From Daphnia pulex (taxonomy: Eukaryota > Arthropoda > Branchiopoda > Diplostraca > Daphniidae): a stretch of DNA of 64,000 bases. The stretch lies in NCBI RefSeq assembly GCF_021134715.1, contig NC_060017.1, positions 3,844,001-3,908,000 of the forward strand, read 5' to 3'. The notes below the pieces were generated by a model. The model was not told the DNA's origin. It made no database searches and saw only the letters and a list, made by a program, of their open reading frames with translations. Positions 6,078 through 57,612 of the stretch are shown in pieces. Position 1 is the first letter of the stretch. The number at the start of each line of letters is the position of its first letter. Made by a program: the position numbers and the translations under genes.

Positions 6078-9000
6078 ATGGCAGATGTCTCGCAACACAA
6101 CCAACTTCTTCTCTCCGAGTGCTACAGAGGCTCCAGCCCGCGCAGTGCCTCCACTCCTGGTCCGGCGGCTCCCGACAGCCCGGCCAATTCGGCGTCCGGC
6201 CGCTTCTCGGCTTCACCGTCCGTGGCGGCCGCTCTTCTCTCGCCGTCCGGCCCCAATTGTTTCTCGTCCAACTACCACTACTCGCCGTACCACCACCACC
6301 ATCACGCCATGAGCAGCCAGCACCATCCGGCAGCTCTGGGCCTCATGGGCTCCTTCCTCAGCGTTGGTTCCTATCCTTACGCGGCGCTGGCCGCTGCGGC
6401 CGCCGCTGCCGCCGCTGGAATGGCCGGCCACCACCTAGCCCCACCGCTGGCGCCTCCGCCTCTGCTGCATCCGCTCAACCGCATCCGGCAGCAATCGTCA
6501 CCAACGTCCCAGTCTCCAGTCTCCAGAGTTCTGCCCTTTTCCGTTGAGAACATCCTGAAGCCGGAATTCGGTCGCAATCAGCCGTCCAGCCATGACTCGA
6601 CTCCAGCAGAGACGGCCGACCAGCCGGAAAGCGTCGAGATGAAACCACTGGGCAGAGAGCCCATCAAGAGGACGGCCTCCAATGCCGGAATCACCAGCCC
6701 TTCGTCTTCGCTGGGCAACAAGCGCGTGAAATCGTCCCTTTCCGTCTCGCCAGCGCCTCAGATGAGCAAGAAAATCATCACGTCGCCCGTCTCCATCAAG
6801 GCTGACCCTGCTGATCTGTCGGGACGGACGAGCAGCTGCACCGATTCCTCGTCGTTTTCGTCCGGCGAAGGCAGCAGCCACGGCAAAGATGGCGAACAGT
6901 CGACCGGATCCACCGAACTGCCAACCGATCCTACCAAAATGACCGATCCAGCCAAATGGCCCGCTTGGATCTTCTGCACTCGCTACTCTGATCGACCGTC
7001 CTCTGGTAAGTCGCCATTGATTTGAATTTGTCTACTATTGTGTTCTTATTACATATAGCGATATGAAATAGTTTGGCATTTAGGCCTAGAATATTCCTGT
7101 TTAATTTAAATCTATAGCTGACAAGATTTGTTGGGAACCCATTTCAGAATTTCGCTAATTCATTTATAGCCCGGTGTATAGGAAATTTAGAAACTTGCGC
7201 TTAATGGCAGATTTTTATGCACTGTCTCAAATGAGACGTTGGTCAGGTTTTTTACTGTGAGAGATTTCATCCCATGAGGATTTTTTCCCATTTCTTTATG
7301 ACTTGTATATCATTCTCGAGCCACAGGTATATTTTTCTATATTTACTGCCTGGCTGCTGCAGGCTGCTATGGTACCCATGGGCGACTTGGGCTCAGATCA
7401 GAACTGCTACATCACAAATTGTTTGCGCTTATTTATAATAGACATCGCTAGACGAATACTATTTCTATAAAACAATTTATTCGGCAAATTATTCGAGTTG
7501 CCTTGAGCGTGATCGATAATGAAATTAATTAACAGCTCGGGGAGGGGGGAAGTTGTTTATTGGAATTTTGTTTTTCATTTATAGTTTGGTTTTGGCCTCT
7601 GTCCAGTTATATTAGACGGTCAGACGTATTTCGTTTTCATTTAGTAACGACAATTGATGTATCTTGTTTTACGCGTGGTATATACACAGCAGTGTAAGGC
7701 AGCAGCGAAATTTAGTGTGTTCGAAGCTGATACTGCCCAGCACATACGGTAAATAAAATCACACAAAAAAAAGGAACAGCCGTCTCGTCCAGTGCCGTGT
7801 GTAACATAAAGGATATAGTTATAGTTATATACTGCTGTGTATTAGGAGAGGCGTGTGTGGGCAATTGTCGTGATTTACGGTTATTTCACATCGGGCGACA
7901 GTCATTGCGCCTATGGATCTGCTGTGGTGGTGGTGGAACACACACACAACAACAGCAGATACGCCAGAGACAGCAGACAAACAAGTCTTTCTGATCAAGT
8001 CCTCAACGTCTTTATATAGTACTCTCTATTTCAAAAAGGCGTCAGGGAACTCCTGCTATGCTCGAATCCTTTTTGTGTTTGGCTGGCTGGTGACCCCACA
8101 CCAGTCCAGCATGCACTACTGGCCGTCCGGCGTATAAAGAGAGTAGACACATTTAAACGCAGTATTTTTTCAAAAAGGGAAAATAAAATAAAGCGGGGAA
8201 GGGTGGCTGAGTCTGGGCGAGAGAAAAGGAAAGAAAGGACGAACAAGAGGTCATTGCTGTTTCACTGGTTTCTAGGTTGGTCTGGTCGCCAGTGATAAGG
8301 ACTCTTAATATGTGAACGCATGGGCGAGCACACGTCGCACGACGGCAACGCGACCGACCCACAGTTACCACTGCCCTATACATGGAAGTGTGTGCGGTGC
8401 CATATCTGAACCACCAACGAAATGTATAGCAACTAAATAGACGTATTTATTTATTATGATTTTTATTATTTTCAAAATACGCGCCTTCAGACGAAATGTC
8501 CGGGGCTTTTGACTTTGAGCTAGACAGCGAAAATACAAGCAAAATTCGCCAAGCAAGCAATAAAAGTGTGATCATATCGATAAGCGGGGGGGGGAGAAGT
8601 TGTAGACGAAAACAATAGCTGACACACGTATAAACAATTCGCTTGCGTAATTTTTGGTTTGAATCGCCCAACTCTTAAAGAAAAGAAAAAGAACCAGCGG
8701 ATCCGAAATCAACTCAATTTGACAAGCTTACACGGAAATGCCAAAAATGTGAGTTTATTAGACAATACACAAAAGGATGCATGACACGAATGTCCCTTTC
8801 TGTTGTTGTTGGTCGGCTCTCTCTCGTCTCTCTACCGTGCGAACTCAATTGGCGTTGACCTTTTTTTTTTCTTCCTTCCTTTTTTTCAAACGCTGATGGT
8901 TATCTCTCATATGTCTGTTGAAGCTGGCGCGTTGGCCATGTTCAAAAGGAGGGAGAAAAAACGGGACAGCCGAGGCCATAAAAAGTGTGCTGAAGAGAAG

Positions 9001-11917
9001 GAGAGAGAGAAGAAGGAGAGATAGAGAGTGAAGGGGAAAGAAAAGAAGAGAGCTTATCAGTGACCATTTCAGTGATTGAATAAGAGAGACACAACACACT
9101 GAGCTCGGAAAAAAAGAGACGTGAAGAAGATATAACTTTTAGGCTTTTATTTCTCTCTCTCTCTCTAGCTGCTTCGTTGTATGTATATTTATTTACATTT
9201 TTGTGCGCGCGCGTGTGTTTGTATGTGTGTGTGTGTTGTGTGTGCGTCAAGTTAAAGGGAGTCGACGCGCTTTGAGACGAAGAGAGAGAGAGAAAAAAAG
9301 GCATCCAAAGATAGCGACCACCCGGGCGAGACCTGCGACTCGCCATGGAGGTTCAACTGGCTAGAAGATTGCTTCATCCTTTTTTCTTTTCAAATTCTAT
9401 TTCTCTTTTTTCTTCTTATTTCTTATTTCTTATTTCTTCCTTTTTGAATTTTACAATCCCCTTATTATTTCTCTTATAGCCAAGAGAATGTCCTTGTTAT
9501 ATAACCGTCTCCCACATATTTCCGCCAGCGAAATATCACGCGCCTGAAAATATTTCGATTTCGTAATTCCACCCAAACGTGAGTAATAATGAATTAGTTG
9601 ACGAAATACTTTTTATTTCGTAAAAAAGCTGTTTAGCGGAAGAGCCGAACCCACGAGAAACAATTCACTCGGGAAAAGAGCGAGGAGGAAGCGAACTCAA
9701 CTAGTCGCCTCGAGCTCTCACTTTGATGGATTAAGTATATGTGTAGTTATAGAAGCTCGCCGAGGAACGAGAATAACACGGTCTACACGAAAGATATGTA
9801 CAGGCAGTACAGGGGGTGGAGGGGGGATCAAGTACGTGCATAAGAGAAAGAAAGAAAAGAAAACCAAAAGAGCGTGTACCATCAAACTAGACAGTGATTA
9901 AGGTTATTTGTACATGACAGCCAAGGAGGGTTTGCGTGCAACCTGCGTGTGGTTTGCCAGAGCTCTATAGACGGGCGTGCGTTATATATAATACAGCCGT
10001 CTTTATTATACATCAACCACCATTTGAAATTTGGCAGGACAGTCCCATAACAGTTCTGTATTACTATATTCGATTGAAATTATGATTTGCTTATTTGGGT
10101 TTTGAAGCGGAAAGAAAATTAATTTGGTTGACGCAATAACAAGATTATTATTAGGTCGAACTCGACCGTATTGAATCGAATGAGATTTCAATCGTGAAAT
10201 TGTTTAACTAAAAAAAAAAAACATTCAGTTTCGACTTTCGATGTATAGGTACAAGCATCAGTGTTTGGGTGGTCTGTATTGTACGTACGTATGTAGATAT
10301 AACCTTGCCATAGTTTACCCTAGGCTGCGTCGATTATACCCAGCAGCCACAGACAATCTGAATCTTTTGAAATATCTGTTGCTTCTGCTGCATTTATGAA
10401 CCCAATGGACAATGGCATCCATCTTCATCCTCTGTGTGCCTTTTTTTCCTTCTTCTATCTGAGGGTCCTGTTGCTCAAACAATTGTAAACCGTGCGCGTA
10501 ACTTCCACTGAGAGGCTAGATGAAGCAATCATATCATGACTCCCTTCAAAGACAGCGATAATGGCCCACTGTCATCCGCCTCTATAATTTTCTTATCTGG
10601 GCATTTCGACTCAATCTTCCACGTTATTATTCTCTCTGAACCAGGCAGGCACGCTGGTATATAAGCCGGCAGTCATTTTCGAAAAGGAAGAAATAAAAGA
10701 ATAGATACTCAATTTTGGCTTCCCTTTCTCTCCGTGAAGGCAAATAGGAAACACACCGAGCATTTTTATTTTGACCCCCGAGGACTCAACAGCGCATTTG
10801 TTTTTAGCGCTATTTTATCCAAATTACATTCGACTAATTCCGTCACACTGATACAAGATGATATAAAATTCATCTGCCATTTATTTCTATAGAAATAGCT
10901 CGATCAATATCTTACCATCTGCCATTCCACGAAGTGTGAGTGTATCGCGTGACTCCGAGCTTGAAAAGTCAACATTTAGTCGGAATTAGAATTAGTAAGC
11001 GAAAGAATTTCCAGAAATCGACTGCCTGGAATGAGATCCTATTTCGAATGAAACTTAAGAAGATGGAGGGAGGGTGATTGACAGCTATATGGCACACAAC
11101 CAATATTTAGTCTAGGCTTCTTAATATCAAATCCATCTTGTAAATCAATAACAAACTCCAAAGTCGTATCATACCCCGCAAGAATAAGAACCTGTGCATT
11201 CTTCGCATAGTTCTGTAGCCTTTTTTTTTTAAATGTTTTTGCAATCCGATCTCTTTCGGTTGGTTCGATTTCCTTCAGATCAATCACAAACCTCTGAGGT
11301 TTGGGTTGCGCAAGGTTAGGGAGAGCTACAAGTGTGGGCGAATCACAAGACGATGTTTGGCTTATACGGTACCAACGGGTGGTCTTAATCGATTATTCAA
11401 ATTTGATCGATAGGTACAATAACGCTCTGGGCTATTTTACCACTTATAAGTGTAACTATAGTATTTACGATAAGCTGAAAAATCAGACCCTAAATTAGAA
11501 GAGATTATTAATTATATTCTTTTTTGATTTTTGATTATTTCTCCAGGTCCGCGATTGCGACGCACCAAAAAAGACCGGAACGCCGAGGAGAAGCGCCCGC
11601 GGACGGCTTTCACGTCGGAGCAATTAGCCCGTCTCAAAAACGAGTTCACGGAGAATCGTTACCTGAACGAGAAGCGACGCCAAGAGCTGGCCAACGAATT
11701 GCAATTGCACGAGAACCAGATCAAGATCTGGTTCCAGAACAAGCGGGCCAAAATCAAGAAAACCACCGGCCAGAAGAATCCCCTGGCGCTCCAGCTCATG
11801 GCTCAGGGTCTCTACAATCACTCGACTGTCCCAGTCGGCGAGGAGGAGGAAGACGAAGCGTTCTACGCCTCCCATCAGCAGCACCAGCAACAGCAGAGGG
11901 AACAGCACAGTGAATAA
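6078..11917 (+). CDS. en: engrailed: homeodomain repressor, two exons
   Basis: Exons 6078-7005 and 11547-11917 encode 432 residues; the 4.5-kb intron is in phase 1 inside the Gly codon of the SSG motif (donor GTAAG, acceptor CTCCAG). The ATG at 6078 has A at -3 and G at +4; the open frame extends upstream but without another ATG. Order of parts: Ala/Pro/His-rich N-terminus; EH1 Groucho-binding motif [14 protein letters not shown] (about 152-165); a PADLS CtBP-type motif (about 244-248); EH2, the Exd-contacting [18 protein letters not shown] (about 293-310); homeodomain (about 324-383) with WFQNKRAK; then the engrailed-family tail [17 protein letters not shown]. The family represses target genes in the nucleus and fixes posterior compartment fate. 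There is no RS motif between EH2 and the homeodomain, so this is the engrailed rather than the invected copy. Confidence 0.93.
7006..11546 (+). other. engrailed intron
   Basis: This 4.5-kb intron contains GA/CT and GT microsatellites near 9000-9020, 9150-9170 and 9215-9245, plus a protein-like fragment on the minus strand described separately. I searched for a 6-nt RS-type microexon. The one look-alike, GAAGAA near 10686, is followed by AT rather than GT and cannot be spliced. Confidence 0.6.
11042..11287 (-). pseudogene. Protein-like fragment with a P450-like I-helix motif
   Basis: An 81-codon open frame without an ATG lies antisense inside the engrailed intron. It contains a stretch ending [13 protein letters not shown]. 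The (A/G)GxxTT pattern is the oxygen-binding I-helix motif of cytochrome P450 proteins, and LAGYDTT is a common form in animal P450s. The residues after it do not continue like a P450, and no heme-binding Cys motif is seen. It could be a decayed gene or transposon fragment, or chance. Confidence 0.2.
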
Positions 11918-18785: not shown

Positions 18786-21700
18786 TTATTCTTGTTGCAT
18801 CATCTCGTCGTCGTCGTCTTCGTCTTCGTCCATCGCCATTGTCGAGTGATTGTAGAGGCCCTGAGCCATGAGCTGGAGCGCCAGCGGGTTCTTTTGTCCG
18901 GAGGCCTTTTTGATTTTGGCCCTTTTATTTTGGAACCAAATTTTGATTTGATTCTCGTGCAGTTGCAGCTCGCGCGCCAGATCTTGGCGGCGCTTCTCCG
19001 TCAAGTAGCGGTTCTCCGTGAACTCGCTTTTTAACCGGGCCAATTGCTCCGAGGTGAAGGCCGTCCGTGGGCGTTTTTCCTCAGCCTTGCGGTCCTTCTT
19101 TGTCCGTATCCGACGTGCCCTAGGACCTATTTCATAGCAGAAATTTATTCGACCAATTCTTCATCGCAGTCGCACCGTGACCAATTGGGGACGATATATT
19201 TTATACACGCGGAAAGGGGGGAAATTGAAAAGGATTCCGTGTTATATGAGCATGTCACTCCGCCATATATATTAGCTTCACTGCTTCAGTTTGGCAGCTA
19301 GTTATTGCTGGAAAACTTCTTTTTTTTTTCTTTTCCTTTTTAGATTTTTCCCAACCATCATTGTAGCGTCTAAAAGCGTTAACATTCTTGTGAAAACTCC
19401 ACTAATTCTATCACTTTATTGACGAGGGATCCATAATACCCTTTTAATTGATATCTTATCTTTTATTGTTTAATAATACGTTTATTTAATATACGTATGT
19501 TATCCTGAAGAGATAAGGATAAACGAATGCCAAAAAAGTTCTTCTAAAAAATAATCGATTGATTTTAGCAGGTAATTTCAGCTCCTAATAAATGGTAATC
19601 TGTAATGACTTTGAAAATAGCCTCGTGTTGATGGCCATGTCTGATTTGATCATCAGATTACACGATTTGTTTTTTTTTTCTTTTATCATAATAGAGTTAT
19701 AATCAGTTTCGCAATGGTAGTGTTCCGCTGTCTAATGCTGGTTCACGCGACAAGGCGACAGCGGGAAAACTCGACGGGAGATCATTTTGAATCCAAATCG
19801 TTAGATCCTTTTTCTCGTGCGCTTACTCGTGAGCATGTGCTGCTTCTGCGCCCGAGATGCTGATTTATACTCGATCTAGTTTGGTGGAACGGAAGGACTC
19901 AATTTCTGTTAGTGTGGCGTATTATACAGCTTTATTGGATCTCTAGGCGAAATGATAAACTCAGGGCTAATGAATTCGTTGGAGAATGTAATGGGACTTT
20001 GATATCGAATCCCCCGCTGTTAGCGTCCTTCTGGTTGTTTAATCTCTCCCGTATGTGTAATGACCCAATCTCTCTCTCTCTAATTACAGAGCCATTTCCT
20101 CTTCGCCTGTAATAACTTTATCACGACTGCCTTAACGAACTCGAATTACTTTTTTTCATATCCCGTTGCCCAAGCGTTCTCGTTCTCAAGGCCACACACG
20201 CACAAACAAAGTCATATATGTGCTGGCCATTAAAACTGCTGTGTACCTTTTTTATCTAGATAAGCTTTTGTTTTTCTTATAGGCCTGAATATCCGATAGC
20301 AACAAGCCCGACATTATGGGCCGGTTTGCAACTTCCAATAAGAATTTAGAACAGCCTATAAACAGTTACCGAAAGCAAATTGGATTGCTGATATTCCCTT
20401 TGCTAAAATCTAGTTCTAAAATAAGTTTTGAATGCAAATTGATTTGTCTAAATTATATGCCCCCCCCCCCCACCCTTCCGTCGGCCGTATGAGCGTACGT
20501 TGAAACATATTACACTCTTATTTTCTGTACAAACTATATAACCGCTGGTAAAATGCCCCCGTGGCACTAATTGATGACGCTGCAAAATTGGGAAAGATTC
20601 AAAAACTCAAATGGATTCCTCGAAGTGTAAAAGGAAAAATCTGCTTTGTAGCTATTAGACGAATAACCGGAGAGAGAGAGAGGAAATGGCTAAATTGAAC
20701 CTGGTCTTGTTCTATGTGCACAGAGCCGAATAACTAAATATGGAGAAGAAGTGGTGGAAGACCACCCAACTGGTGCACAGCAGTGACGGTGGTGCACAAT
20801 CAAATAAGTCGAAGAGAAAAAGAAGAAAAAAAAGAATGGTATCTAGGAAAAGCAAAGGAAAAAGAAGAAGAAGAAGAGGGGAACAGCTATACAACTTCAC
20901 AATTACAGGTGACAGCGTCGTGGGCGCCGTGGCCGCCACGCGGGGCCCAACGCCACGGGGAACATGACAAAGTGACGTTACCGCACCACTGGGGGCCGGC
21001 TCGACCGCTTATTTTTTTTTTTTTTTTTTTTTCCTTTTTCATGTAAACTGAATTATTCCCCGAATAAATACTAAAAGGAAAAACTATTGGGAATTCCCAG
21101 GAAAATTTCGTTTAGCATTCTTCCACACCAAATAATATAAAGTTGCGCAGTCGAATGTTTTTAGATGTTTTCCGATTTTTGTTTCTCCTTTTTCTTCCAA
21201 TTCAGATGTCGCCGTCGGGAAAAATTAATATCTCTACTGTTTTGTTTTTTTTACCTGCAAGGTTTGGGCTCTTTGGGTTTTGAGGATCTTAATTATGAGG
21301 AATCGGATGAACTGAAAATCACTTACTTCTTCCTGAAATCGAGAGAAAAAAAGACAAGATGTTAGTTTTTCATTCACATACATTTCAGACGTAACATATG
21401 GGCAATATAAGTTAAGAATATCGGCGCTCTTTGTAACACTATCCGGGAGATTATCTACTATTTTGAACATGATTGGGCATTTTAAGGTTTACATATTCTA
21501 GCCATTGTCAAACCGAATACATTTTTCCCGAATCAGTAAAATAATTCTGAGCGTTTTTTTGACAATGTGAAAAGATTGACGTTCAAATGAAAAAGTCATG
21601 CCGCTTTCCCGGTATTTTGTTTGTTTTTTATTTTTATTTTTTCCCTTATTATTTGTTTTGTGTGAAAGAAAAATCTTTCACCTACCCCCTGCGATGGACG

Positions 21701-24700
21701 CGGGCATAGAGTACACGTATCAACTGTAAAGGAGGCAAGATGGATGTCTCGACAACGGTTCACTTGCTGATGTGATCTCAAAAGGAGAGTAGAGAGTGTC
21801 GGGAAACAAGGAACTTGTATAAATTCTTTTTGGTTCCTTCTCTGCTGCCAGCTTCATTTCTTGCTATTTGACATCTTTCCTCTGTTGGACGCCAAGCTAT
21901 TCATCAAGCGGTACCAGCATTCTCAAAACTATTTTTATACATCTCTATTTATGTGTATGAGGTTGGTCTCGCTACATGTGACTATCGTCGTGCCGAATTT
22001 ATTTGATTTCATCCAGAATTCTCCAGCGCTCGTAATTTTATTACGCAATTCAAATATCCATGAACGCAACGAAAAAAAGCTTGCCACATGACTATGTATC
22101 AGCAAAGATAATAAGAAAAACTTACTCGTAATTTTTTATTAAAATTAAAGTAAATTACAGTGTACGGCGAGGCTAATTCTGCGAACATTGCCTTGTGAAT
22201 TTTCACGCTAAAAGTAATAATCAGGAAAATGGAATGATTAGAAATGCGGCGCGGGATTTTTGAGTAACAGCAGAAAGAAAGCAAATTGTAATTGAATAAC
22301 TGCCTGAAGGTTATTTGAATCTATTGTATATAACCTAGGGCAGTTTTGGTAGTGTTTGAATAGTGTTTGTATTCAATTGTCAGTTTAATTCCCAGTCCCA
22401 CGAAGTGTGGCCCGATAGCTGTTGCGTTATTTGCAGCCAACAAAGGAGGACCTACCGCATCGGTGTCACCACAAGAGTGTACAGTGGCCGTTTGCCATAC
22501 AACAGCGTGACAGTGCCGTCTAAATAGTAAATGGCATGCAAATGAAACTATAGTGTATATATATATACCGGCCGACGGCTTGGCTGGCTGGGCTATAGGC
22601 TACATGCAGCAGCTGAGCAGATATAGGAAACTCCAGCACAGACACAAAAATACGTGCTCCGTCGAGCGTGAATTACATCTAAACAACTAGCTCTTTGTGT
22701 CAACGTGAGAGCAGTTGGGTGAAGAGTGGGAGGTCCCGACAAATAGTATAGCCACGGTAATCACTCACCGAATAAAAGTGGGAGAGTCAAAAGAATTAAA
22801 TTTGTGAAGCAAATCATCTGATGGTCTCATTAAGAGCCTACGCACGCGCACAGTGGTCCCTGTGTATATTAATCTCTAATAAAACGACCAAAGTTCTTAC
22901 TACTTTTTATTCAACACATAGAAAATGGTCAATAATAGGAACTTCAAGCTGAGAGCTTTTGTCCTGGACTCTGTAATAGTCTACCGTGCACAAAAGGCCC
23001 ACCACCAAGGTAGCCCCAGTAAACTTCATGCCTCCATGCACATTAATTCATCAAGGGTTGGGGGGGGGGGCAATTTGAGCCTCGTTTTTATTCCGGCCTT
23101 ATCACGATATTGTGTTGTCTTAGCATCAGGTTTGGTCAAACGGTTTCCGGTTCTCATTCAGAATTTCGGAGCCATTTCGAATGAAGTCACTCAACCTTGG
23201 ACTTGAGCAACTGAAAAGCTGAAATTTGTGGTGAAATGTTGATTTTAAAACACGAGGAAAATCTACACAGAAAAAGGACCACCAGTCAAGAAAGCTGTCG
23301 GAATTTGACTGTAATTACTGTAAAATAATCAAGAACATGTTGTTCCCTAATTGAAAATTTTTTGTGTACAAAATTTATAGGGAAAAGACTATTTATTAAA
23401 AACATGTTTTATTTAATTTTTTTTTATCCCATTAACCTTCACGGTCCCAAATAAAGAGAAAGGTGAATTGAAAGTTTGATCATTTCTAATTTTTGTAAAG
23501 GAAAAATTGAACAGGTTAGTTGAAAATTGTTTGCCGTGCCAAATGAGATAATCGACCAAATAGTTTATGGGTATTTCAATCACAGTCATGACGTGGCGTA
23601 TTTTCGTTATATAGCAAACTTATTTTTAAAAGAAATTTTCCCCGAATATATTTTTATTAAATAATTATTTTTGTGTGAACCATTTTCAGTTATGGTATTT
23701 GTCAACGGTTATTCCGAATTTGGCGTGTTTTAAAAGAAAACACTTTGTGGCGTTGTTGAATGATGCGAAGCTGGTGGTCTATTGGCGCAATCGAGATATG
23801 GAGCCCTGTTGCATAATTGTTGTTGCATTTGCCTTGCCAATCAACTGATGTATAAATACATTTTTTTGGTTTTCCGTTCGTTTGGAAATGCGTGGAGCGT
23901 GTTGAGTATTTAATTGGATAAGCGACACGGGAGTTCGGGCTAGTCTCTCTACACAGCGAGCTGAGCTTTAGCAGAATGCCAGCACCGACAAGTCTTTGTC
24001 GGTTTATTTTCTATAAGGCCCCACACTTCCCAATTTTTGGCCACCCTCTTTCCGTTCGTCATAGTCTACATAGCACGTTCCTCTCTCCGGGCTACACGTC
24101 TCTCTAATGCCCCATAATAAACGCTTTGTCATCTCTGAGAGAAGTCGCTTCATGAATTGTAAAACCGGTAACACCTGGGACCAGATCATCATTACTAAAT
24201 GGACGCTTGTGAGCATGATTTTTTTTTTCTCCAACTTTTTATCACTTAACAGCTTTTATGATTCCCTCCCCCACACACATACCACCACACGTGACTATCA
24301 TTAATTAATTCTGTATTGCTTGTCTTTTTCAATTGTCTAGCTGCAGCTATTTAGAATGATCTTCGATTTTTTTCAAACCTCACAAATCCGATTCAATAAT
24401 CCGTGGGCTCGCAAATGCTTTAGTAACGCATCAGGCATTTATCATCCTTGCTTGTTACAATTACTAGACATATTTCAAAGCTAGATCTGTTATTACGTTT
24501 GCGCTTGGGTGGCGCTATTAAGTTGTAACGCGAGAGAGAAATGACAGATGATTGGGGAAAAAAGGACCACCAAGATACCAAGTCCACCTCCAGCCTCCAC
24601 ATATTCCTCGTAATTGTTATGTGACACTTGACTATCTCATCATTTCAACAAAAGACAGGATGAATCGTTGTACAGTACAACAACAAGTGACATACATATA

Positions 24701-27700
24701 GGCTACACTATAAAACATCAGACGTCGTTGTATAACGAGCACAGCCATTCCCGGTCGACATCAACGAAATTCAAAAGTCGCGCCATCGTAATATCCCATA
24801 CAAATACGCGCTGCAATAATAAAGACATTCAACTTAACCTTTTTTCTTGTATGCGTAACATAATAGTTTGCCTTTGAAAAAAAAAAAAAGTCATTGGATG
24901 GGCCGTCCTTTTTTTAAACTTTTCCCAGTTTTCTAGACACTTGTAGTGGCACAATATTTTGAAGAAATTCGTAAGAAAGCCCGCGACAGCAGCTGCGAGC
25001 AATAATTCAAGTCTTTCATCAAAATATACGTTACGTGTTACCTTGTCCAGGTTCGTCCATTGAAATTGAATGAAAATCTTTGAGGCCAAAAAGGCGCTGG
25101 CGCCCGAGAAAAATGGAAAGGAGAGAGAAAAAGTTTGACGTGGACAAAGTGAGGCAACACGAGTTGAATGAATGAGAGCCCTTTTTTTAAAAAAGAAAAA
25201 AAAGGTCGATCTTAACACGCTATATATATATATTCCCTAGCCCAGAGCAGACCTATATTCTGAAGGATAGTGTTCTTACTTCATGTATATAGACATGTGA
25301 CACAACTATATATACGCTATACATCCAAACATGTTGCACCAGCGCATGTCGTGGGGCTATACGTTCACATGTAACCGAACCCGAGCTGTTCCCCCCTCAT
25401 CTCTTTGAGCCTTTGAGGGTGCTGGTAGATTTAATCATGTTGTCATATTTTGTGGAAGAACTTTGGGCCTGGAACAATGGGACACACTGCCACCAACTTT
25501 CCCTGGAGAGGCAAGCAAGGCTATGCGTCATTATTTGAGTCATGTCGCGCATGTCGAGTCTCTCACCTCTCAAGGCGTACAAATAGAAATAGTGCCACGC
25601 TTCGGCTGTGAGCCAGAAAAAATAATTATACCTGACACCGTACCCGCTTGTAAGCGATTCTTATCATATCCATCAGATGAGCGATCATTAGAAAAATGAG
25701 ATAACCCTATTGTCGCATTGAAATTCGCTGATCAACGACCCGAAACATCTAGGCCTATATAGTTTCCAAGCACGTAATCAAACTGATCAAGTCTTAAAAT
25801 TTATATTCAATCAAAATAACAGAATGCCAAAAAATAACGGAGGCTAATAAAGAAAGCGGAGTTTCAAGATAGAAGTCAAAAAGGATTAAATTAAGCCGAT
25901 AGGGGCATGCGCGATTTCGAGCGATGATGTCGACTATAAAATGCAGAAAGAACTGTCCAAAACTTTTGATTGTTCATGATTCCATCTCGACGGTATTCTT
26001 TCTAAATGATTGCAACCATCAAAGTGATGTAACCGCCTTTTAGGGTGCTGGAGAGCGGATCCGCCGGATCGCAACATATTTCATAAAACCACTTTTCAAA
26101 TAAGTTACCTCTTGTCATTTATAACAAGGAATACTGCGCGCATGCTTATTTCTTTTGATTACTTCACCGGGATTTCACTTTAAAAATAATAAGTTCCATC
26201 TAAAATTCTAATACATCCCCCATTTTTTTTTAAGTTAAAAAAAAGGTGGACAACTTAACCGTATTTTATTACTTATGTATAATAAAACTATAGTCAAAAC
26301 GATCGAATAAATCGTTTACCGGAAGACGGGCGGTCGGAATAGCGTGTGCAGTAAACCCAAGCCGGCCAGAGAGTTTCCTTGTCGCCGCCGCTGCCCCCCG
26401 ACGATGTTTGCTGTTGATTGGCACTTCCCGCGCTCGATCCGCCACCGGAAACAAGTTCGTTGTTGCCGACGGAACAAATCGATCCGCCAACCTGATGATA
26501 TATACGTTCCAAAAAAATGGCAAACCGATTAGATTTGACACGAACAAATAAAAAATACCATTTTAATCGAATATTCCAAACTATCTACAATCTAAATTAT
26601 ACACAGCTACTATTCTACTTGCCACTTTTCACTTGTCATGGCCTATAAAGGCTATACGACGAAGAAATTGAATTGATCAATTCGTAGAGACGGATTCAAA
26701 CACAGCAGGATTGTGTACTGCATGCATAATCGTGCTTAGATTTGCGTTACACCAAAGGGCGATGCAAATGATAACCATTATTACATAAGAAGTGCGATCA
26801 AATCAAAAAAGGATAGCGCGGACTTACGGAAACAGATCGGACAGGACTAGCAGAAGAGTTATCGTCGGTGCTGTTCGAATGAAGTGACGGGCTCTCTTGA
26901 GAAGCTGACTGTTTCTCAGCCGCCGTGAGATTTCCGGCCGTGAGTCGGTGGACGGGATCCGGCGGCGAGGCGGAATTGCGAACACTCAGATCGATAGCTT
27001 TGCTTCCGGCCGGTTGGTGGTGGTGCACCTTGTTCACTTGCTGAGTTTTGACCTTGGCGCTGGCGGCGATGGTTGCCGACGTCAAAGCGCTCAGAGGATG
27101 AGACGTCGATCTTCCGGTGAGCGCACCACCACCGCCAGACGGCGTTGGCTGATGAGGCCAGCTCTTGCCGCTAACATTTCCACCGAGATATTTGTCCGTG
27201 CAGTTTTCGACTAGATTGAGGGTAGTCGGAAGGTGATGATGATGCTGCTGCTGGGCTTGGTGAGCCAGCAGCATCGTGTTGAGTGGGTGCGGATGCGTGA
27301 TGGCTTGGGCCACAGAAGCGTGATGGGCCGCGGCCAGTTGCTGTTGGTGGTAGTCGATGGATGAGCCGGCTGCGGCCGTGGCAGCCAGAATCATTTGGCG
27401 GGCGGCAGCCAGAAATGGCAACTGATGAAAGGCTCCCAAGAAACTGCCGGTGGTAGTGGCACTGGCCGAGGAACTCATCTGCTGCTGCTGCTGAATCAGC
27501 TGGTGATGGTGCGTGTGAAAGGCCACCGCGGCTGCCGACTCGACCGGATTCATCCGATTTCCGAATTCCGGATTGAGGATATTGTCAATGGAGAATTTGA
27601 TGATGTTGGTAGCCGACGCCACCGAGTCTTTGTCGTCCTCGGAAATCCCATTGAGGTCGCGGTGCTCGTCTTTGAGACTTTCCGGCGATGGGAATTCGTC

Positions 27701-27856
27701 ACCCGATTGCTGATCCGGTGGCGGAGGCGTAGTTCCGCCGACACTTAACTCTTCGTCTGACACCAGGTTATCCGATTGATGATCACTGATTGCATTGCCA
27801 CCGCTCTTATAGTGCCTCAAACTATGATGGCGAATCACTGGGCTTTCATCGGCCAT
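18786..27856 (-). CDS. inv: invected: RS-motif engrailed paralogue, four exons
   Basis: Exons 27856-26828, 26491-26320, 21332-21327 (microexon) and 19126-18786 give 515 residues. The ATG (MADESP) has A at -3 and G at +4; the frame is open a little further up but only with TTG. Order of parts: acidic N-terminus with PPPP; EH1 [12 protein letters not shown] (about 88-99), close to the fly invected form; Gln/His/Ala-rich stretches; AIDLS, a CtBP-type variant; EH2 [18 protein letters not shown] (about 384-401); RS (402-403); [10 protein letters not shown]; homeodomain (about 419-478); the [15 protein letters not shown] tail; and an acidic C-terminus. The exon 1/2 junction is in phase 0. Both junctions around the microexon are in phase 1, and the EH2-side junction matches the engrailed intron. 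Role: nuclear homeodomain repressor, usually co-expressed with engrailed. Confidence 0.92.
19127..21326 (-). other. invected third intron
   Basis: This 2.2-kb intron lies between the RS microexon and the homeobox exon (acceptor ATAG before GTCCTAGG). It is AT-rich with a C homopolymer near 20461. I see no gene in it. Confidence 0.7.
21327..21332 (-). CDS. inv: Six-base RS microexon of invected
   Basis: On the minus strand GAAGAA is flanked by TTTCAG on the 5' side, with a long T/C-rich tract before it, and by a perfect GTAAGT donor. The preceding exon ends in G and the next begins GTCCT, so splicing gives G-GA, AGA, A-GT, CCT = Gly-Arg-Ser-Pro. This inserts Arg-Ser exactly where invected proteins carry it (DRPSSG-RS-PRAR) and keeps the frame. 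From memory, insect invected genes also use a 6-nt microexon here. Confidence 0.85.
21333..26319 (-). other. invected second intron
   Basis: This 5-kb intron lies between the EH2 exon (donor GTAAAC) and the microexon. It contains an octamer-like ATGCAAAT near 22536 within 22380-22640, a region denser in G+C than its surroundings. The 78-codon open frame near 25463 lacks an ATG and resembles nothing. No other gene is supportable. Confidence 0.6.
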
Positions 27857-34296: not shown

Positions 34297-35971
34297 TTAA
34301 TTTAGAGGTTTAATAATATTTGATGGTTCTTGGGAAACACATTTACTTGAAGGGTAAACTTTGCGCCAGGTCCGAACCATTCTGAGAGCAAATCGAGGAT
34401 GTCGAAATCCTTGTAGTATTGGATTGACACTGCTTCCCACATTGATTAATAGTCGAAAAATGGACAAGAATATGGTTGCATACTGAGGCAAGTAAATACC
34501 TGCAACAAGTAGAACCCATGGAGGAAGATAAAGAATCACAAAAGCTACCATTACTGCAACTTGGATGCTGGTAGGGCGTTCCCATTGAATTAATGTAACC
34601 TTTTTAAATTTAAAGATAGGCTTGCGCTTCTTCTTTTGACGCTTTCTTCTATTTTCTGATGCCGGTCTAGATTGAGGAAATGAATCTGGTGATGGTGTTT
34701 CCGGATCCGGCGAAGATATTGGACGAGCATCACTAAGTTGTTGTAACCGTTGATGCAATTTTTCGACAGATAATTTCAGCGCAGTGTTGGTAATTGTTTC
34801 ATGGACTGAATTAGTTGAGAGATCGGCCGAGTACATGCTCATATTAGAAGCATTAGATGTCGGCGATGGAATGGTGTCAATGATGGAAAGAGAAGATACA
34901 AAATCCGGATTGCCTTCACGGGAGACGAGGTTCAAGTTACTCGTGTTGTTAGAGGGGTAAGTGAGCTGATTGCCATCAATCGATTGATGGGGCGTAGATT
35001 CGGTAGCATGTTCAAACCCATTATGGGTAACAATCGTTGGGATTAAAGTTACTTTTAAATGAGGTCCATTATTTTGTTTCAGGACCCTTGCCGAATAAAA
35101 GTTAGATGGTGTATAATCTTCCTTGCTGTCGGAACACACACAATCAGCATCTTGACAATTTGTTTGGTGATTACTTTGAATCGCTCTAGTGGTAAGATGG
35201 CCAGTGACGGGGGGTATTGAACTGAGATTAGAGAAAAAGAGCAAAAAAGCGGATCCAATGAATGTCAATGAATAAATGCGCAAACAAGGCTGAATCGCCC
35301 TTCTGTCATTTTCAGCCACCGTAGTGGTCAAGCCGGTCCCCCAAAACGCCACGAGAAAGTTGAGCCAAGTGGCAAACAGAAGCGCCATCAACCAAAGAAC
35401 ACAGAATACAACTTTGATCACTCGATAGCCATTGGGCATTTCAACATGATTGGCCGAGATGTTTAAGGACCACCAATGCGTCCAACTAAAATAAAGGTAA
35501 GTAACAATTAATAAAATCACATCAGTTGACTTAATCTAACCTACCTAACCTGAGAGCTGCTGTTCCTGCAATGGATAGTAAGTGAATAGCATGAATAATG
35601 TTATGTAAAATAGAACACCACCAGTTTTCTTTGAATGTAGATGGCGAGGCGTTGTAATCGAGCACCACTAGCGAAGAAATCACGCCAGCGAGACTGGTTA
35701 AGGAAAGGAGACACTGAGCGAATGCCAGGTTCAAAAGCCCGAAAAAGTACCCGCGACATGATGCGTTGTATACCTTGGCGGATGTCATTACGAGACTGTT
35801 GATCACAAATGCTGTAACCGCTGTGGACATTTCTAACCAAATTAAACATTTTCTAAGGAAAGGCAAGTCATGATTTGAAATAAGCCATTCGGACGAAAAG
35901 TTGTAATCAGTCTGTGGAGTCAACGACTTCTTGATGTCATGATCCATGACGAACAGTAAAATAAACCACAT
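34297..35971 (-). CDS. Atypical rhodopsin-like seven-helix receptor
   Basis: Exons 35971-35550 and 35485-34297 join in phase 2 across a 64-bp intron to give 536 residues. Hydrophobic segments: about 40-64, 75-104, 119-140, 163-189, 210-233, 446-474 and 477-499. The Trp-Trp-Cys at 117-119 supplies the usual TM3-top Cys. TM6 has LYLPPW, a proline kink like CWxP. TM7 ends NPILQ in place of NPxxY. No DRY motif follows TM3; the splice gives ALSWTHWWS. The third intracellular loop is very long (about 210 residues), Ser/Thr/Pro-rich, with a basic cluster RRKRQKKKRK just before TM6. N-glycosylation sites occur near the N-terminus. It should sit in the plasma membrane. Ligand and subfamily are not recognised. 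The start could also be the Met nine codons in (35947). Confidence 0.72.
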
Positions 35972-37801
35972 AGAAGCCACTTAAAAACAAGTCGGACTCA
36001 AATTTTACATTTCTCATGTGCACAGTTTTTGGTTAAAACAGATTTTTAGCGTAAATCGTTCGTGGTTCATGAGCAAACTATGTAAAATGGCCATCTGTTG
36101 GACGCGGCCACCCTTTTCTTTGTTAGCAGCACCCTCCTTCCGATCCGATTGCTTACTGGAGTTCATATTCCTTCGGCGCAAGTAGACTATATCTCAGAGT
36201 TCTAAGAATCATCACCAAGGCAACTGAAACAAATCAAACCAAAATAATAAAGCAACCGATATCATTACCAGAACTGCGTGCTTGATGTCGAGAACGGATC
36301 ACTAAATCACGTAGGAAAATCCTAATTACGATCTTGAAAAACGCTATGCGCTATCTACTCTGGTTACCTGGTTGGCATTTATAAGGTAACTGCTCATCTA
36401 GCCTTATATCGACCATCGTCGTCGATCGTCTTAGACATGCGGGTCGTTTTTTTTTTAATATTAAATTAATTAGCGAGATCTTTATAATAATCGCATGTTT
36501 GCTTTGTGCATTGTGAGATTTTATATGACAAGAGATATTTTCCTGTGTGGGTAGATAACCACCTAGATTCGACAACCTAAATAGAGAGAACCTACTAGCC
36601 GAATGATCCGTTATAACAGCCACTGTCAACTGTCGATGACCCTAAGGTAGCAGTGACCTGCCCATTTCTTTGCTGCTTTTGTATCATAACCGAGAATGGG
36701 TCATTTGATTAGAATCACAGATTCCGGAAGTAGCTTGCTTGACATTCAACGTTGCAGGTCTGTAGGCTATATCCAAAGAATAAAGGTCACAACTTAAATG
36801 AATTGGAATTTTTCTTGCTGAAATAATTATTTCGTGAAAAATTAAAAATTAAGGTAGCCTACAACAATTTTTCAGATGCAATATAATGTTTCACAGGCTT
36901 CATCAATCATTTATCAAAATTCTAAAGGAAAAAACATACGTCACCGTATGTTTTTACCGGAACATCATAAAGTTTTATAAGGCAGCCGTATTTCATACTA
37001 ATTGGGTCACCGGTAATCCTTTTTCATTCCGCATTATAAAAAGCCAGGAGGAAAACCAGGAGAGGAAATGGAGATAGAAATTCTATAAGAGAAAAACACA
37101 GCTATGGTAAAGGAATTGTCATTTCCTTAGAATAAATGCATGCACGCACGTAGTACCGCTATCCTGAATTACAGAAGAGGAAAACAATCGTCAGCATCAA
37201 GTTGGATACACTATCTTCCTCAGACAATGGATCTTTCCTGGTTTTTATTTAAAACTCATTTGTCCAATAAATGTTAAAATCACTGATAATACCGGAGTAA
37301 ATGTACGGAAGGTGTAAGGTAGTTCGTAAGGATGCTTATGGGATATTGACGAGATCGAAGACGTTTATTATGTCTGGATGTATATTTTCATATATGTCCG
37401 CGATCATTTCCGATATATCCTCATAGAGCTTTGATCACAGTGTAGATCATACAGATTCATAAATGTTCCAATTCAATAAAAGCATTTGTTTTATACCTTG
37501 AATTAAAAGACATGCATTTTCTCGTGAAGTAAAAAACCTTTTCAGCGAATGGGCAAGTAACATTCTCGCACGTTTAATATTTGATTTATGTGGAAGAATG
37601 CTGAGTGTTAGTTGTCCTCAAGAGGAAGTGTCTATGAGTTTCGTTTCTGCTTTATACGAGCCCGAGAACGTATCCATGGAAGCCAACCGGAGGCTATGAA
37701 AAAGAAACGGACAACACGCGGTGACTGGCCAAGTACGAAGTCCCTTCATCGGACAAGCGTGTTTTTTGTATAAGGATAGCTAATCTGAATAGGGCCGCAG
37801 G
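35972..37801. other. Intergenic DNA
   Basis: This lies between the receptor gene and the promoter of the Gly-rich secreted protein. It is AT-rich with no supportable gene. Confidence 0.6.
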
Positions 37802-39804: not shown

Positions 39805-39942
39805 GAAATTGTGTACCAGTTTCTTTGCTCCTTATTCTTACCAAGCTCTTTCAATCAATCCAGTCAACAGTTATTAAATGTTGTAATATGTTTTGTTTTA
39901 TTTGTTTTCATACAGAGAAGAAAGTCAAACCAGACAATCAAG

Positions 39943-42180
39943 ATGACAAAAGTTATGCTTATAACATTGACTTTGGTAGCTCTCGTCTGCGCCGAGGAGC
40001 TGAAAGCTGAAGGCCGTCAGATGAACTGGAGTAACCTTAACTTTGCCTCAAAGCCAGCCTATCAGCAGTCCAGCTACGGAAGTGATTCTAGCGACTCGAA
40101 CGGATCTCCCTCCGTGCAAAATGCTCAAGCAAAATCTTCCGGTAGCTACCAGGGACTTGTGTCTCAATCTTTGGACGGGCAGGACATCAACCGCGATGGA
40201 AGCTATTCGGCCCCACCCAGCTATGGATCAAACAACGATTACGGCTATGAAGCTTCACCTGATTCATCTTACGGCAATGCCGTCGGATACGGGTATGATT
40301 ATCAGAGAAACCTTCCAACCCCTTCCGGCCGTTTTTACAGCATGAATAATCCTTCTTTGCCTGGAAACCCTGTCCCTGATTCGTATTTGAGGGGAATGCC
40401 TCGTGAACAACAGGATCACTCTGGGTCACTATTATCCAGCATGCAAAGCGGAAAGATCTATCAGTACCAGAGACCAAGCGGATTTAACTTTAATAGCACT
40501 AATTCCGATCAAATGACAAATCGAGCTGGCTACGACGAAGATGCTCCACTTGGCGGAATTTCATCGTCATCATCAACCGGATCGATGTTATCAAGCACAT
40601 CTATGCGTAATCCCATATCTAGACAAGACGATTTTAGTTACGGGACTGTGAATGGCGGATATGGTTCCATTCCGCCAGCCGCGGGATACGGAGGTGGGGC
40701 ATATGGCTATGGTGGGGTTGGCTACGGGGGGTCTTACGCCTCGCCGGGCTACTCAAGCAACTACAGAGTTCCTTATGGTGGTTATTCAAGCTACGGGACT
40801 CCCTCTTATTCTAGCGCTGGATATTCAGGGTCATACGGCTCTCCGCTGTATTCCGGCTCGGGCTATGGTTCATCCGGATATGGGGGCTACGGAGCGGCGG
40901 GCTACGGGGCCGGAAGCGGATACGGAGCGGGTGGCTACGGGGCCGGAAGCGGATACGGAGCGGCGGGCTACGGAGCGGGTGGCTACGGGGCTGGATACGG
41001 AGGGGGTTATGGGTCTTATGGTGGATACGGATCCAACTACGGATTACAAACTGGATTTCAACCAGGTATCTTCAAGAAACCAAAGAAAGCTTTCCATGAT
41101 TGGTTGAAAGGTAAAGACGTCCTCCCTTACGGCTACGGATCAGGCTACGGTTATGGAGCCAATTACGCAGCCATCCCCTACGACTATTATTACGACCCAC
41201 CTGGCATTTGGCATTTGAGCAAATTTGCCATGAAAAGCATCTTCAAATCAATGTTCAAGCCCATCTTTAAATGGCTTCCATTCTGCTCCCCGTTTTTCTA
41301 CGCTCGAACTGATCGATCGTGAGCATTTGACAATTTAAAATAATTCGTAGACGCATTCGTGAGATGGGGAAGGTATCACTTTAGTTACTCCTCTTGCACG
41401 TATCAATTTTCACCGCACATCCCTTCGTTACCTTTAAGAATTGTCGTCTCAACTAATTTATAGATTAAAACCAAAAGGAAATGGTAATAACTCTGCCGTA
41501 GATTGCTGTAGAATGTCGACGTAAAAGTTACCACAGAGCATCACATAATAGCTCTATGTAGATAAGAGTGGCACATTAATACCAAATCAATATCTTTCAT
41601 TGCTAACATTTTATGTAATTTTTACAGAGATGACAAACACAGCAGTTTCGTAAGTGCCTTGACTGCTTTCCTGCCCATCGGCCTCTTCTTAGCCGCCATC
41701 GTTCCAAACATCGTTACCGTCAGTGCTGGGTAATTCGTTTAGACAAAAACATACATTTCAAGTTAATGTAATTATTCTTTGAAAATTCTACAGTCGCCGT
41801 AAACGTTCAGAAGCTGGAACCAAGGAAGAAGCAAAAGCTGCTGTAGATGAAGCTACATTCCCCATTCTCGACATGATCAGCTCTTTCGGCGTCCGTTCTC
41901 TACAGGAGCCCTCCTGCCAATCCAAAATCGTTTGCGAAATTGGCCGGATGGGCGGTCTTCCGGAGGCTAATGCAGTTCAACGAGCTCTTTGGTTCACAGC
42001 AAACTAGTATGATGATACCATTTAATTGTTTTTATAGTTCACTTGGTAATGTTTTTCTTTTAATTCGTTGTTTTACGAAACAGTGTTCCAGAACGCGTAT
42101 CGAACTTGATCGGAGCGGACAAATTATTCCGTCAGATCCGAAGCCAGCAATGTTCGGAATTTATGTGCTCCTCTGACTAA
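39943..42180 (+). CDS. Secreted Gly/Tyr/Ser-rich protein with a conserved-looking C-terminal module
   Basis: Exons 39943-41318, 41628-41729, 41794-42006 and 42084-42180 encode 595 residues. The signal peptide MTKVMLITLTLVALVCA should be cut before EELK. A Ser/Asn/Tyr-rich part follows, then GYGG/GYGAG repeats (roughly 235-370), and aromatic-basic segments near the end of exon 1. Exon 2 adds a hydrophobic stretch FLPIGLFLAAIVPNIV. Exon 3 opens with RRKR, a likely furin site, followed by about 98 residues with Cys pairs (SCQSKIVCEIGRMG and QQCSEFMC). The start was chosen at the ATG before the signal peptide; the frame is open further up but lies in the intron. Gly/Tyr repeats suggest a structural extracellular, perhaps cuticle-linked, protein. 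Family not recognised. Confidence 0.75.
40860..41040 (+). repeat. Internal Gly-Tyr coding repeats
   Basis: Units such as GGCTACGGGGCCGGAAGCGG recur nearly unchanged in tandem and encode GYGAGSGYGAGGYGAG. The DNA-level identity suggests recent expansion, so length may vary between alleles. Confidence 0.8.
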
Positions 42181-55731: not shown

Positions 55732-57612
55732 CTAGGAACCAACCAAGATGTGGACGAAGCCTTCCAGTTCGTCGCCCAATTCACTTTTCCATCTCACACC
55801 CGAAAAGTCAGAAGAAGAAGAATCACTTGTCCACGACGAACCGACGCCACTATGGCCGCTAGTAGCCGAACCACAATGGCTACTCTTCCAATTGGCGAGT
55901 CCCAATTCGCTCACAAGTTCAGGACCGGATGCACCAGCAAACAGAGACGGATCCGAAGAGTTTGAATCGCACAAATATGAATCAGACGACGAACTGGCGT
56001 TGGAATTACCAGCGGCCGACACGTCAAACCCCGACGCAGTCGACATGCTAAAAACGGAACTCCAGTCAATGTCTCGACTGTCTTCATCGCCGAATCCGGA
56101 ATCGTCCTCATCCGCATTGACCACCGAATTCGATTTGCTCTGACTATTCGTCGTCGCCCCATAGTCGCTGGCGAAATTCGTTTCCGACGACGTTGTGTTG
56201 TTCTCGTAGACATTGCTGCTATTAGTCGTCGTGGTGTTGTTGTAGATGGTCGGAGGTGTGTTGTCGGGCTTGGCCGCCGCCGCAGTGTTGTTGAAGACGG
56301 TACCGCAATGAGAGCAACAACACGTATCACAGTTGCTGGTTGCCGAATTGGTAGCTACTGTCGTCGTCGTCTCAGCAGACGGATTGCAGACCAATCCTTC
56401 CCTTTCCATCTCATCCTCAATGTGCCGCAACGTGTTGCAAATGAGAACGGACCGATGGAGGCTCGGGTCGGAGCACTGCCGGTATCGGTTGAGTTTGAGC
56501 ATGGAGAGAGAGAGGACTGAGAGTCGTTGATGCCGATAGCACGGCTGGGGTAGAGATCGCGGATTCATAAGGACGTGGCCGCATTTGGAACAAGATTTGA
56601 CAGCCGGAGCACCACCGTAATGTTGTTGTTGTTGTTGTTGCTGCTGATGTTGGCTTGCAGCTTGGTTCCACATTTGCGGACGCACCCACTCTGGCTGGAC
56701 CGCCGCTTTGGCACCCAATTCTAAATAGGATTTGCCATTTTCATCCCGCTGGATCGTCTGCCCACTACCTCCGGTAGTCAACTGTTGTTGTTGCTGGTAA
56801 CCGTTGGCAGTCGGTTTGAATCCGTTTTCGCCGTAGCTACCGCCGTTGTAGTTGTTGCATTTGGCGTATCCAGCGCCAGTCTTTTTGGGGCAGGTCGACG
56901 TGTAGCCAAAAGTCCAGTAACGTTCATCTGACCTGACGGACTCGTTGCTGCCGTAATGATATCCAGCTGGCTCTTCCCGGCCGCTGTACTGGACATAGGG
57001 ACGAGGGCTGCTGCAGACTCGCTCGAATCGATCCGCCAGCGACTCTCCGCCTCCATTGGCGACGGGCAGCATGGACGTCAGGTTCTGATAAACATTTTGG
57101 CTCGAGTACTGGACCTCGTTGTTGGAACCATTGTTGTTGTTGTTGGCGTAGGAATATTCGACCGCAGGGACGGCCACATTTTCGGTGGAGTGAGTCGACG
57201 TCCCAGTCGAGTAGTACGTGTTGTTGCTGGATGCAGAGTACGGAGTTGAAGCCCGGACTTCGGCCGCGTTGAAGCCATTGACGTACGTTTCATAATCAGG
57301 AGCGGTTGGCTGCTGCTGCTGTTGCTGGACATCTCGATACCAATTGTTGTTGTTGTTGTTGGGCAGCGATTCCGTTCCAGAGGCGCAGTTGCCGGGCACC
57401 AACGTCTGAGCTAAATGATCCGGAGCTTCGACTCCAACTCGTATGGTGCATTGCTGTTTGGCCGCCCGTGGACCGCTGTGTAGTTGTTGGTGTTGTTGGT
57501 GTTGTTGCTGGTGATTATTATTATTATAATGATGCTGCTGGGCCCGTCCGGCCGGTTCTTCCAATCCTTCGATTGTCCGCTTGTTGCTGCAAGGATGCGC
57601 TTGTAGACCCAT
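55732..57612 (-). CDS. tara: SERTA-domain protein, taranis/TRIP-Br-like
   Basis: One long exon encodes 626 residues from ATG 57612 (ACC before it) to TAG. A splice acceptor (TTATTTAG) lies just upstream at 57652, and the frame stays open to it, so an upstream coding exon is possible. The N-terminal half is rich in Gln, Asn and Gly. A CxxC pair (SCSKCG, about 340) precedes the SERTA domain (about 363-406: LSMLKLNRYRQCSDPSLHRS, then VLICNTLRHIEDEMEREG). A second Cys cluster, CDTCCCSHCG, lies near 428-437. An acidic region (DEDDSGFGDEDSRDIDW) and a C-terminal motif ELGDELEGFVHILVGS follow, as in TRIP-Br/taranis. The family are nuclear co-regulators of E2F-type and chromatin programmes; taranis is a trithorax-group gene. 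Confidence 0.8.
   Translation of the reverse strand: MGLQAHPCSNKRTIEGLEEPAGRAQQHHYNNNNHQQQHQQHQQLHSGPRAAKQQCTIRVGVEAPDHLAQTLVPGNCASGTESLPNNNNNNWYRDVQQQQQQPTAPDYETYVNGFNAAEVRASTPYSASSNNTYYSTGTSTHSTENVAVPAVEYSYANNNNNGSNNEVQYSSQNVYQNLTSMLPVANGGGESLADRFERVCSSPRPYVQYSGREEPAGYHYGSNESVRSDERYWTFGYTSTCPKKTGAGYAKCNNYNGGSYGENGFKPTANGYQQQQQLTTGGSGQTIQRDENGKSYLELGAKAAVQPEWVRPQMWNQAASQHQQQQQQQQHYGGAPAVKSCSKCGHVLMNPRSLPQPCYRHQRLSVLSLSMLKLNRYRQCSDPSLHRSVLICNTLRHIEDEMEREGLVCNPSAETTTTVATNSATSNCDTCCCSHCGTVFNNTAAAAKPDNTPPTIYNNTTTTNSSNVYENNTTSSETNFASDYGATTNSQSKSNSVVNADEDDSGFGDEDSRDIDWSSVFSMSTASGFDVSAAGNSNASSSSDSYLCDSNSSDPSLFAGASGPELVSELGLANWKSSHCGSATSGHSGVGSSWTSDSSSSDFSGVRWKSELGDELEGFVHILVGS

Follow-up and report, generated by a model that had tools for sequence, protein, structure and literature searches.

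Does the invected gene of Daphnia pulex contain an exon of only six nucleotides that supplies the Arg-Ser (RS) motif ahead of the homeodomain, and is that exon included every time the gene is spliced? The question is raised by a 64,000-nucleotide stretch of the genome (contig NC_060017.1, positions 3,844,001 to 3,908,000; hereafter the window, whose numbering is used throughout), in which an initial annotation proposed the hexamer GAAGAA on the minus strand as such an exon. We examined the gene structure around the hexamer, the convergent engrailed paralogue, the odds of meeting so strong a site by chance, and the strengths of the competing splice sites.

Results

Gene structure and the candidate microexon

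The minus-strand gene belongs to the engrailed class, with Pfam matches above the curated cut-offs both to the homeodomain (PF00046, E 9.8e-22) and to the engrailed C-terminal signature (PF10525, Engrail_1_C_sig, E 8.2e-19). Coding exon 1 (26828..27856) runs from the ATG to GTTTCC/GTAAGT, where the slash marks the splice junction, and coding exon 2 (26320..26491) ends at 26320 with a weak donor, TCTTCCG/GTAAAC. The last coding exon (18786..19126), which holds the homeodomain and the C-terminal signature, starts at 19126 behind a weak acceptor (GAAATAG/GTCCTAGG). The interval between these two exons is a 7193-nt intron if the hexamer is skipped; if it is included, the interval divides into an upstream intron of 4987 nt (21333..26319) and a downstream intron of 2200 nt (19127..21326).

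Within this interval the minus strand reads AAAAACTAACATCTTGTCTTTTTTTCTCTCGATTTCAG/GAAGAA/GTAAGTGATTTTC, with the boundaries of the hexamer lying exactly at 21332-21327. It has the anatomy of a microexon (internal, at most 30 nt, with its own AG and GT), being 6 nt held between TTTCAG and GTAAGT. The acceptor region (21333..21365) consists of a CTAAC element, a pyrimidine tract and TTTCAG, and the donor GTAAGT occupies 21321..21326; the hexamer, tract, TTTCAG and donor are as the initial annotation described. The CTAAC element (21365-21361), with its second A 29 nt upstream of the final base of the intron, is a putative branch point by its match to the consensus. A zero-length recursive splice site at 21332 was also considered, and was rejected as the AG there is followed by GAAGAA and not by GT.

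The reading frame accommodates the hexamer in either state. Exon 2 leaves a single codon base (G), and given this phase the microexon codes for (Gly)-Arg-Ser, the codons being G/GA AGA A/GT. The protein would then read SSG-RS-PRARR (junction GRSPRARR), compared to SSG-PRARR without the microexon. Translation of the joined exons gives an included form of 515 residues and a skipped form of 513, both open to the stop codon, and the expectation that skipping is in frame and costs only Arg-Ser was thus correct. The Arg-Ser of Invected, which falls after the WPAW...RPSSG segment and ahead of the homeodomain, is therefore encoded in the genome, conditional on inclusion of the microexon. A search of the genome for a spliced retrocopy, using the 117-base joined stretch, matched only the two genomic exons.

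The engrailed paralogue

A second gene of this class lies on the plus strand of the window. Its coding exon 1 (6078..7005) ends in ...RPSS-G with a strong donor (G/GTAAGT), its intron of 4541 nt (7006..11546) has the same position and phase as that of invected, and its last coding exon (11547..11917) again carries the homeodomain and C-terminal signature. The intron has a GTAAGT donor and 13 pyrimidines among 17 positions at the acceptor. The two genes, at 6078-11917 (+) and 27856-18786 (-), converge, with coding ends at 11917 and 18786. When all 133,188,837 bases of the genome (13 contigs) were searched at the protein level, 29 homeodomain matches were found at E 1e-6 or better, only two of which are engrailed-like: the minus-strand gene itself (100% identity) and the plus-strand gene (92%), with the remaining 27 at 32 to 56%. 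Twelve of the 13 contigs are large; the other, of 15,333 bases, looks mitochondrial, as the 10,000 bases examined hold long open frames under code 5 that resemble, by eye, ND2, COX1, COX2, ATP6, COX3, ND5 and ND4. A 118-residue engrailed-type stretch found no relative among viral contigs or prokaryote genomes.

A pattern scan of the 4541-nt engrailed intron found no Arg-Ser-type AG-N6-GT site. The minus-strand gene hence has what is expected of invected, namely a close, convergent engrailed paralogue that lacks the Arg-Ser site. From WPAW to EKRPRTAF the proteins have 30 residues in Invected (Arg-Ser included) and 26 in Engrailed, so that two of the four extra residues of Invected come from the microexon. 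Taken with its position, phase, residues and splice signals, and with its uniqueness in the invected intron, the absence of a similar site from engrailed supports the initial reading of the hexamer as the RS microexon of invected.

The coding regions differ in one further respect: the 336-nt intron (26492-26827, minus strand) splits exons 1 and 2 of invected, whereas engrailed is a single open exon up to its sole coding intron. The engrailed intron also contains a 10-nt pseudo-exon at 9169 on the plus strand (TCTCTCTCTCTCTAG/CTGCTTCGTT/GTATGT), which would break the frame; it is the top-scoring of 431 AG-N(1-30)-GT combinations in that intron, and a pyrimidine repeat there has probably produced it by chance.

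Several open frames elsewhere in the window were noted in passing. A 639-residue frame (55732-57651, minus strand) contains a SERTA motif (PF06031, E 1.1e-15), and thus a Taranis-like gene may lie near the engrailed-invected pair; a role in Polycomb-mediated repression has reportedly been suggested for Taranis in Drosophila (PMC5493352). At 34297-35980 (minus strand) two adjoining frames resemble, by eye, pieces of a seven-helix receptor, and the larger of them (412 residues) had no Pfam hit at E 0.001. A 505-residue frame at 39805-41322 (plus strand), rich in Gly, Tyr and Ser and with a stretch like a signal peptide, is, again judged by eye, perhaps a cuticle or matrix protein.

Chance occurrence of comparable sites

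To gauge the role of chance, we counted sites that could encode Arg-Ser in this phase, defined as AG-[NNCGNA or NNAGRA]-GT. The 7193-nt invected intron contains 20 AG-N6-GT sites, only one of which is of the Arg-Ser type with any first residue. In 1000 sequences simulated from a first-order Markov model of the same intron, the mean was 0.352 such sites, or 0.081 for the form with Gly as the first residue, and 29.1% of the sequences contained at least one Arg-Ser-type site of any strength. Control loci (20 of 10 kb each, or 200 kb, read on both strands for 400,000 bases) gave 21 Arg-Ser-type sites and a single Gly form, corresponding to 0.38 and 0.018 per 7193 nt, respectively. The initial annotation had put the expectation at about 0.2 from uniform base use.

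We called a site strong if it had a GTAAGT donor, a pyrimidine before the AG and at least 14 pyrimidines among the 17 positions upstream. No strong Arg-Ser-type site occurred in the 1000 Markov sequences or among the 21 in the control loci, nor was there a strong site among all 1194 AG-N6-GT sites of the 200-kb controls, even with GTGAGT accepted alongside GTAAGT. As the threshold for strength was taken from the observed site, these figures show that the site stands out and do not amount to a clean p-value. When all AG-N(1-30)-GT combinations in the invected intron were ranked by a splice score (the sum of donor-consensus matches, pyrimidines and a pyrimidine before the AG), the microexon came first of 560; combinations less than 25 nt from the intron start were excluded, and the score is a simple count with no training on Daphnia pulex.

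Strengths of the inner and outer splice sites

The sites of the microexon itself are stronger than those of the exons on either side. The inner donor (GTAAGT) matches the consensus at all six positions compared to four of six for the outer donor (GTAAAC), and the inner acceptor has 15 pyrimidines out of 17, compared to eight for the outer acceptor (GAAATAG). The acceptor of the other invected intron (26492-26827, minus strand) is equally poor at eight of 17, and so a weak acceptor means little when taken alone. Within 150 nt on each side of the microexon there are no exact complementary 8-mers between the two flanks. Neural microexons have UGC as a signature; no TGC occurs in the 60 nt upstream of this one.

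Six nucleotides are too few for exon definition of the ordinary kind. The microexon's own signals (CTAAC, long pyrimidine tract, TTTCAG and GTAAGT) are strong, and the competing outer sites, GTAAAC and GAAATAG, are weak, which would disfavour direct joining of exon 2 to exon 4. We propose that, given strong inner and weak outer sites, inclusion outcompetes skipping. GAAGAA would then connect the WPAW exon to the homeodomain exon and place Arg-Ser in the linker before the homeodomain, presumably lengthening and altering that linker.

Discussion

Is the site used, and always?

The hexamer at 21332-21327 is, on the sequence features described here, very probably a real and used RS microexon. The opposing view, that it is a chance pseudo-exon which is never used and that Daphnia pulex Invected lacks Arg-Ser, can appeal to the 29.1% of simulated introns with some Arg-Ser-type site. 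It has to contend, however, with the lack of any equally strong site in those 1000 introns or in 200 kb of controls on both strands, and with a top rank among 560 combinations that coincides with the expected motif, place and phase, and we regard it as very improbable. Still harder to credit is that Arg-Ser comes from elsewhere, whether by use of a displaced donor at exon 2, by use of a displaced acceptor at exon 4 or from some other exon: we found nothing to support this, the GTAAAC after exon 2 and the AAATAG before exon 4 do not yield Arg-Ser in phase, and the intron has no second 6-nt Arg-Ser site (other lengths were ranked by splice signals only). We give similarly negligible weight to a 10-nt variant that would use the next donor (GAAGAAGTAA/GTGATT) and shift the frame. 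This is the second-ranked candidate in the invected intron, but its donor, with five of six matches, is weaker than the GTAAGT four bases away, and the frame would be broken before the homeodomain.

The main rival accepts the microexon and differs only in how it is used, holding that it is alternatively spliced, for instance by tissue or stage, so that forms of Invected with and without RS are both made. Included and skipped forms are both in frame, and among Drosophila microexons with exons on either side 68.9% are reported as alternative (283, compared to 128 constitutive; PMC8042270). The same survey finds that the 5' sites of constitutive microexons exceed the upstream 5' sites in strength whereas alternative microexons have 5' sites much like the upstream ones, and that 3' sites follow a similar pattern, the constitutive ones exceeding the downstream 3' sites. 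The strong inner and weak outer sites of Daphnia pulex invected fit the constitutive pattern, though the genes differ, and the missing TGC within 60 nt upstream also counts against regulated use. Alternative splicing thus seems to us unlikely, if clearly less so than the other rivals.

A precedent for constitutive use in a comparable setting is MPC1, in which a constitutive microexon of 4 bp is flanked by introns of over 12 and 3 kb, with 67 nt of upstream sequence and its own 5' site sufficient for its definition (PMC9929638). The two cases share a tiny exon, strong sites of its own and long introns on either side. They differ in the gene, in the nature of the evidence (sequence only for invected) and in the branch points, which in MPC1 are unusually distant (the main ones at -68 and -63; PMC9929638), whereas the branch-point-like element of invected is at an ordinary distance. 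That distance, and the length of the flanking introns (4987 and 2200 nt), speak against a constitutive reading; PMC9929638 describes short introns on either side as the usual setting of constitutive microexons. Because the contrast between inner and outer sites matches the Drosophila constitutive pattern, and because of the MPC1 precedent, constitutive inclusion is nonetheless our first choice, and from the sequence and these analogies we consider it probable.

Relation to known microexons and gene pairs

In hexapods the RS motif is reportedly present in only one of the engrailed-invected paralogues (Peel, Telford and Akam, 2006), and the same authors are said to have proposed that a serine-rich stretch including the motif is phosphorylated. 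The 6-bp exon of Drosophila invected encodes Arg-Ser at the same place as the site described here. That Drosophila invected has a 6-bp exon is stated in PMC7392893, which cites Coleman et al. 1987; both gene family and length match, and the differences are that Daphnia pulex is a non-insect arthropod and that its exon is known here from the genome. The existence of so long-known a precedent, which the initial annotation omitted, makes the Daphnia pulex exon less of a surprise. Other sources say little about it. Invected is not named in the main text of the genome-wide survey of microexons in Drosophila (PMC8042270), and term searches of PMC4989106, PMC10455198, PMC4262259, PMC5069518, PMC9632033, PMC7188484, PMC4901127, PMC10208574, PMC8042270, PMC13017635, PMC5450833 and PMC3199776 returned no passage on the Drosophila exon. 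Among the literature matches listed, all of them open-licence papers, none describes a crustacean version in its title or the opening of its abstract; in view of this scope we make no claim to a first report.

The arrangement of the genes is also familiar. In holometabolous insects engrailed and invected are described as closely linked (PMC10455198), and for hexapods both convergent transcription and gene conversion between the paralogues have been described (PMC3199776). In a psyllid invected was not found (PMC9632033). The Daphnia pulex genes resemble the hexapod pairs in their linkage, in their convergent orientation and in the restriction of an Arg-Ser-type microexon to one of the two paralogues; what differs is that the present pair lies in a branchiopod genome.

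Evolutionary meaning

The kind of exon is thus already known; the present case adds a member in a crustacean, and the gain is evolutionary. We infer that the six bases at 21332-21327 correspond, in a crustacean, to the insect invected 6-bp RS microexon, and that the two are related by common descent. It is quite likely that the RS microexon and the tail-to-tail gene pair were both present in the ancestor of branchiopods and insects, and that the frame, the residues and the layout of strong inner and weak outer sites have been kept since. We judge the interest of the site as an evolutionary marker to be moderate, and its interest for splicing mechanism to be moderate to low. With 4987 nt of intron before it and 2200 nt after it, the 6-nt exon is a clear natural case for studying exon definition by the spliceosome, and it allows a concrete test of whether such exons are missed by gene models. 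If included, the exon marks which paralogue is invected in Daphnia pulex independently of the homeodomain, and the engrailed-invected duplication, together with its hallmark exon, would predate the insects, having arisen before the split between branchiopods and hexapods.
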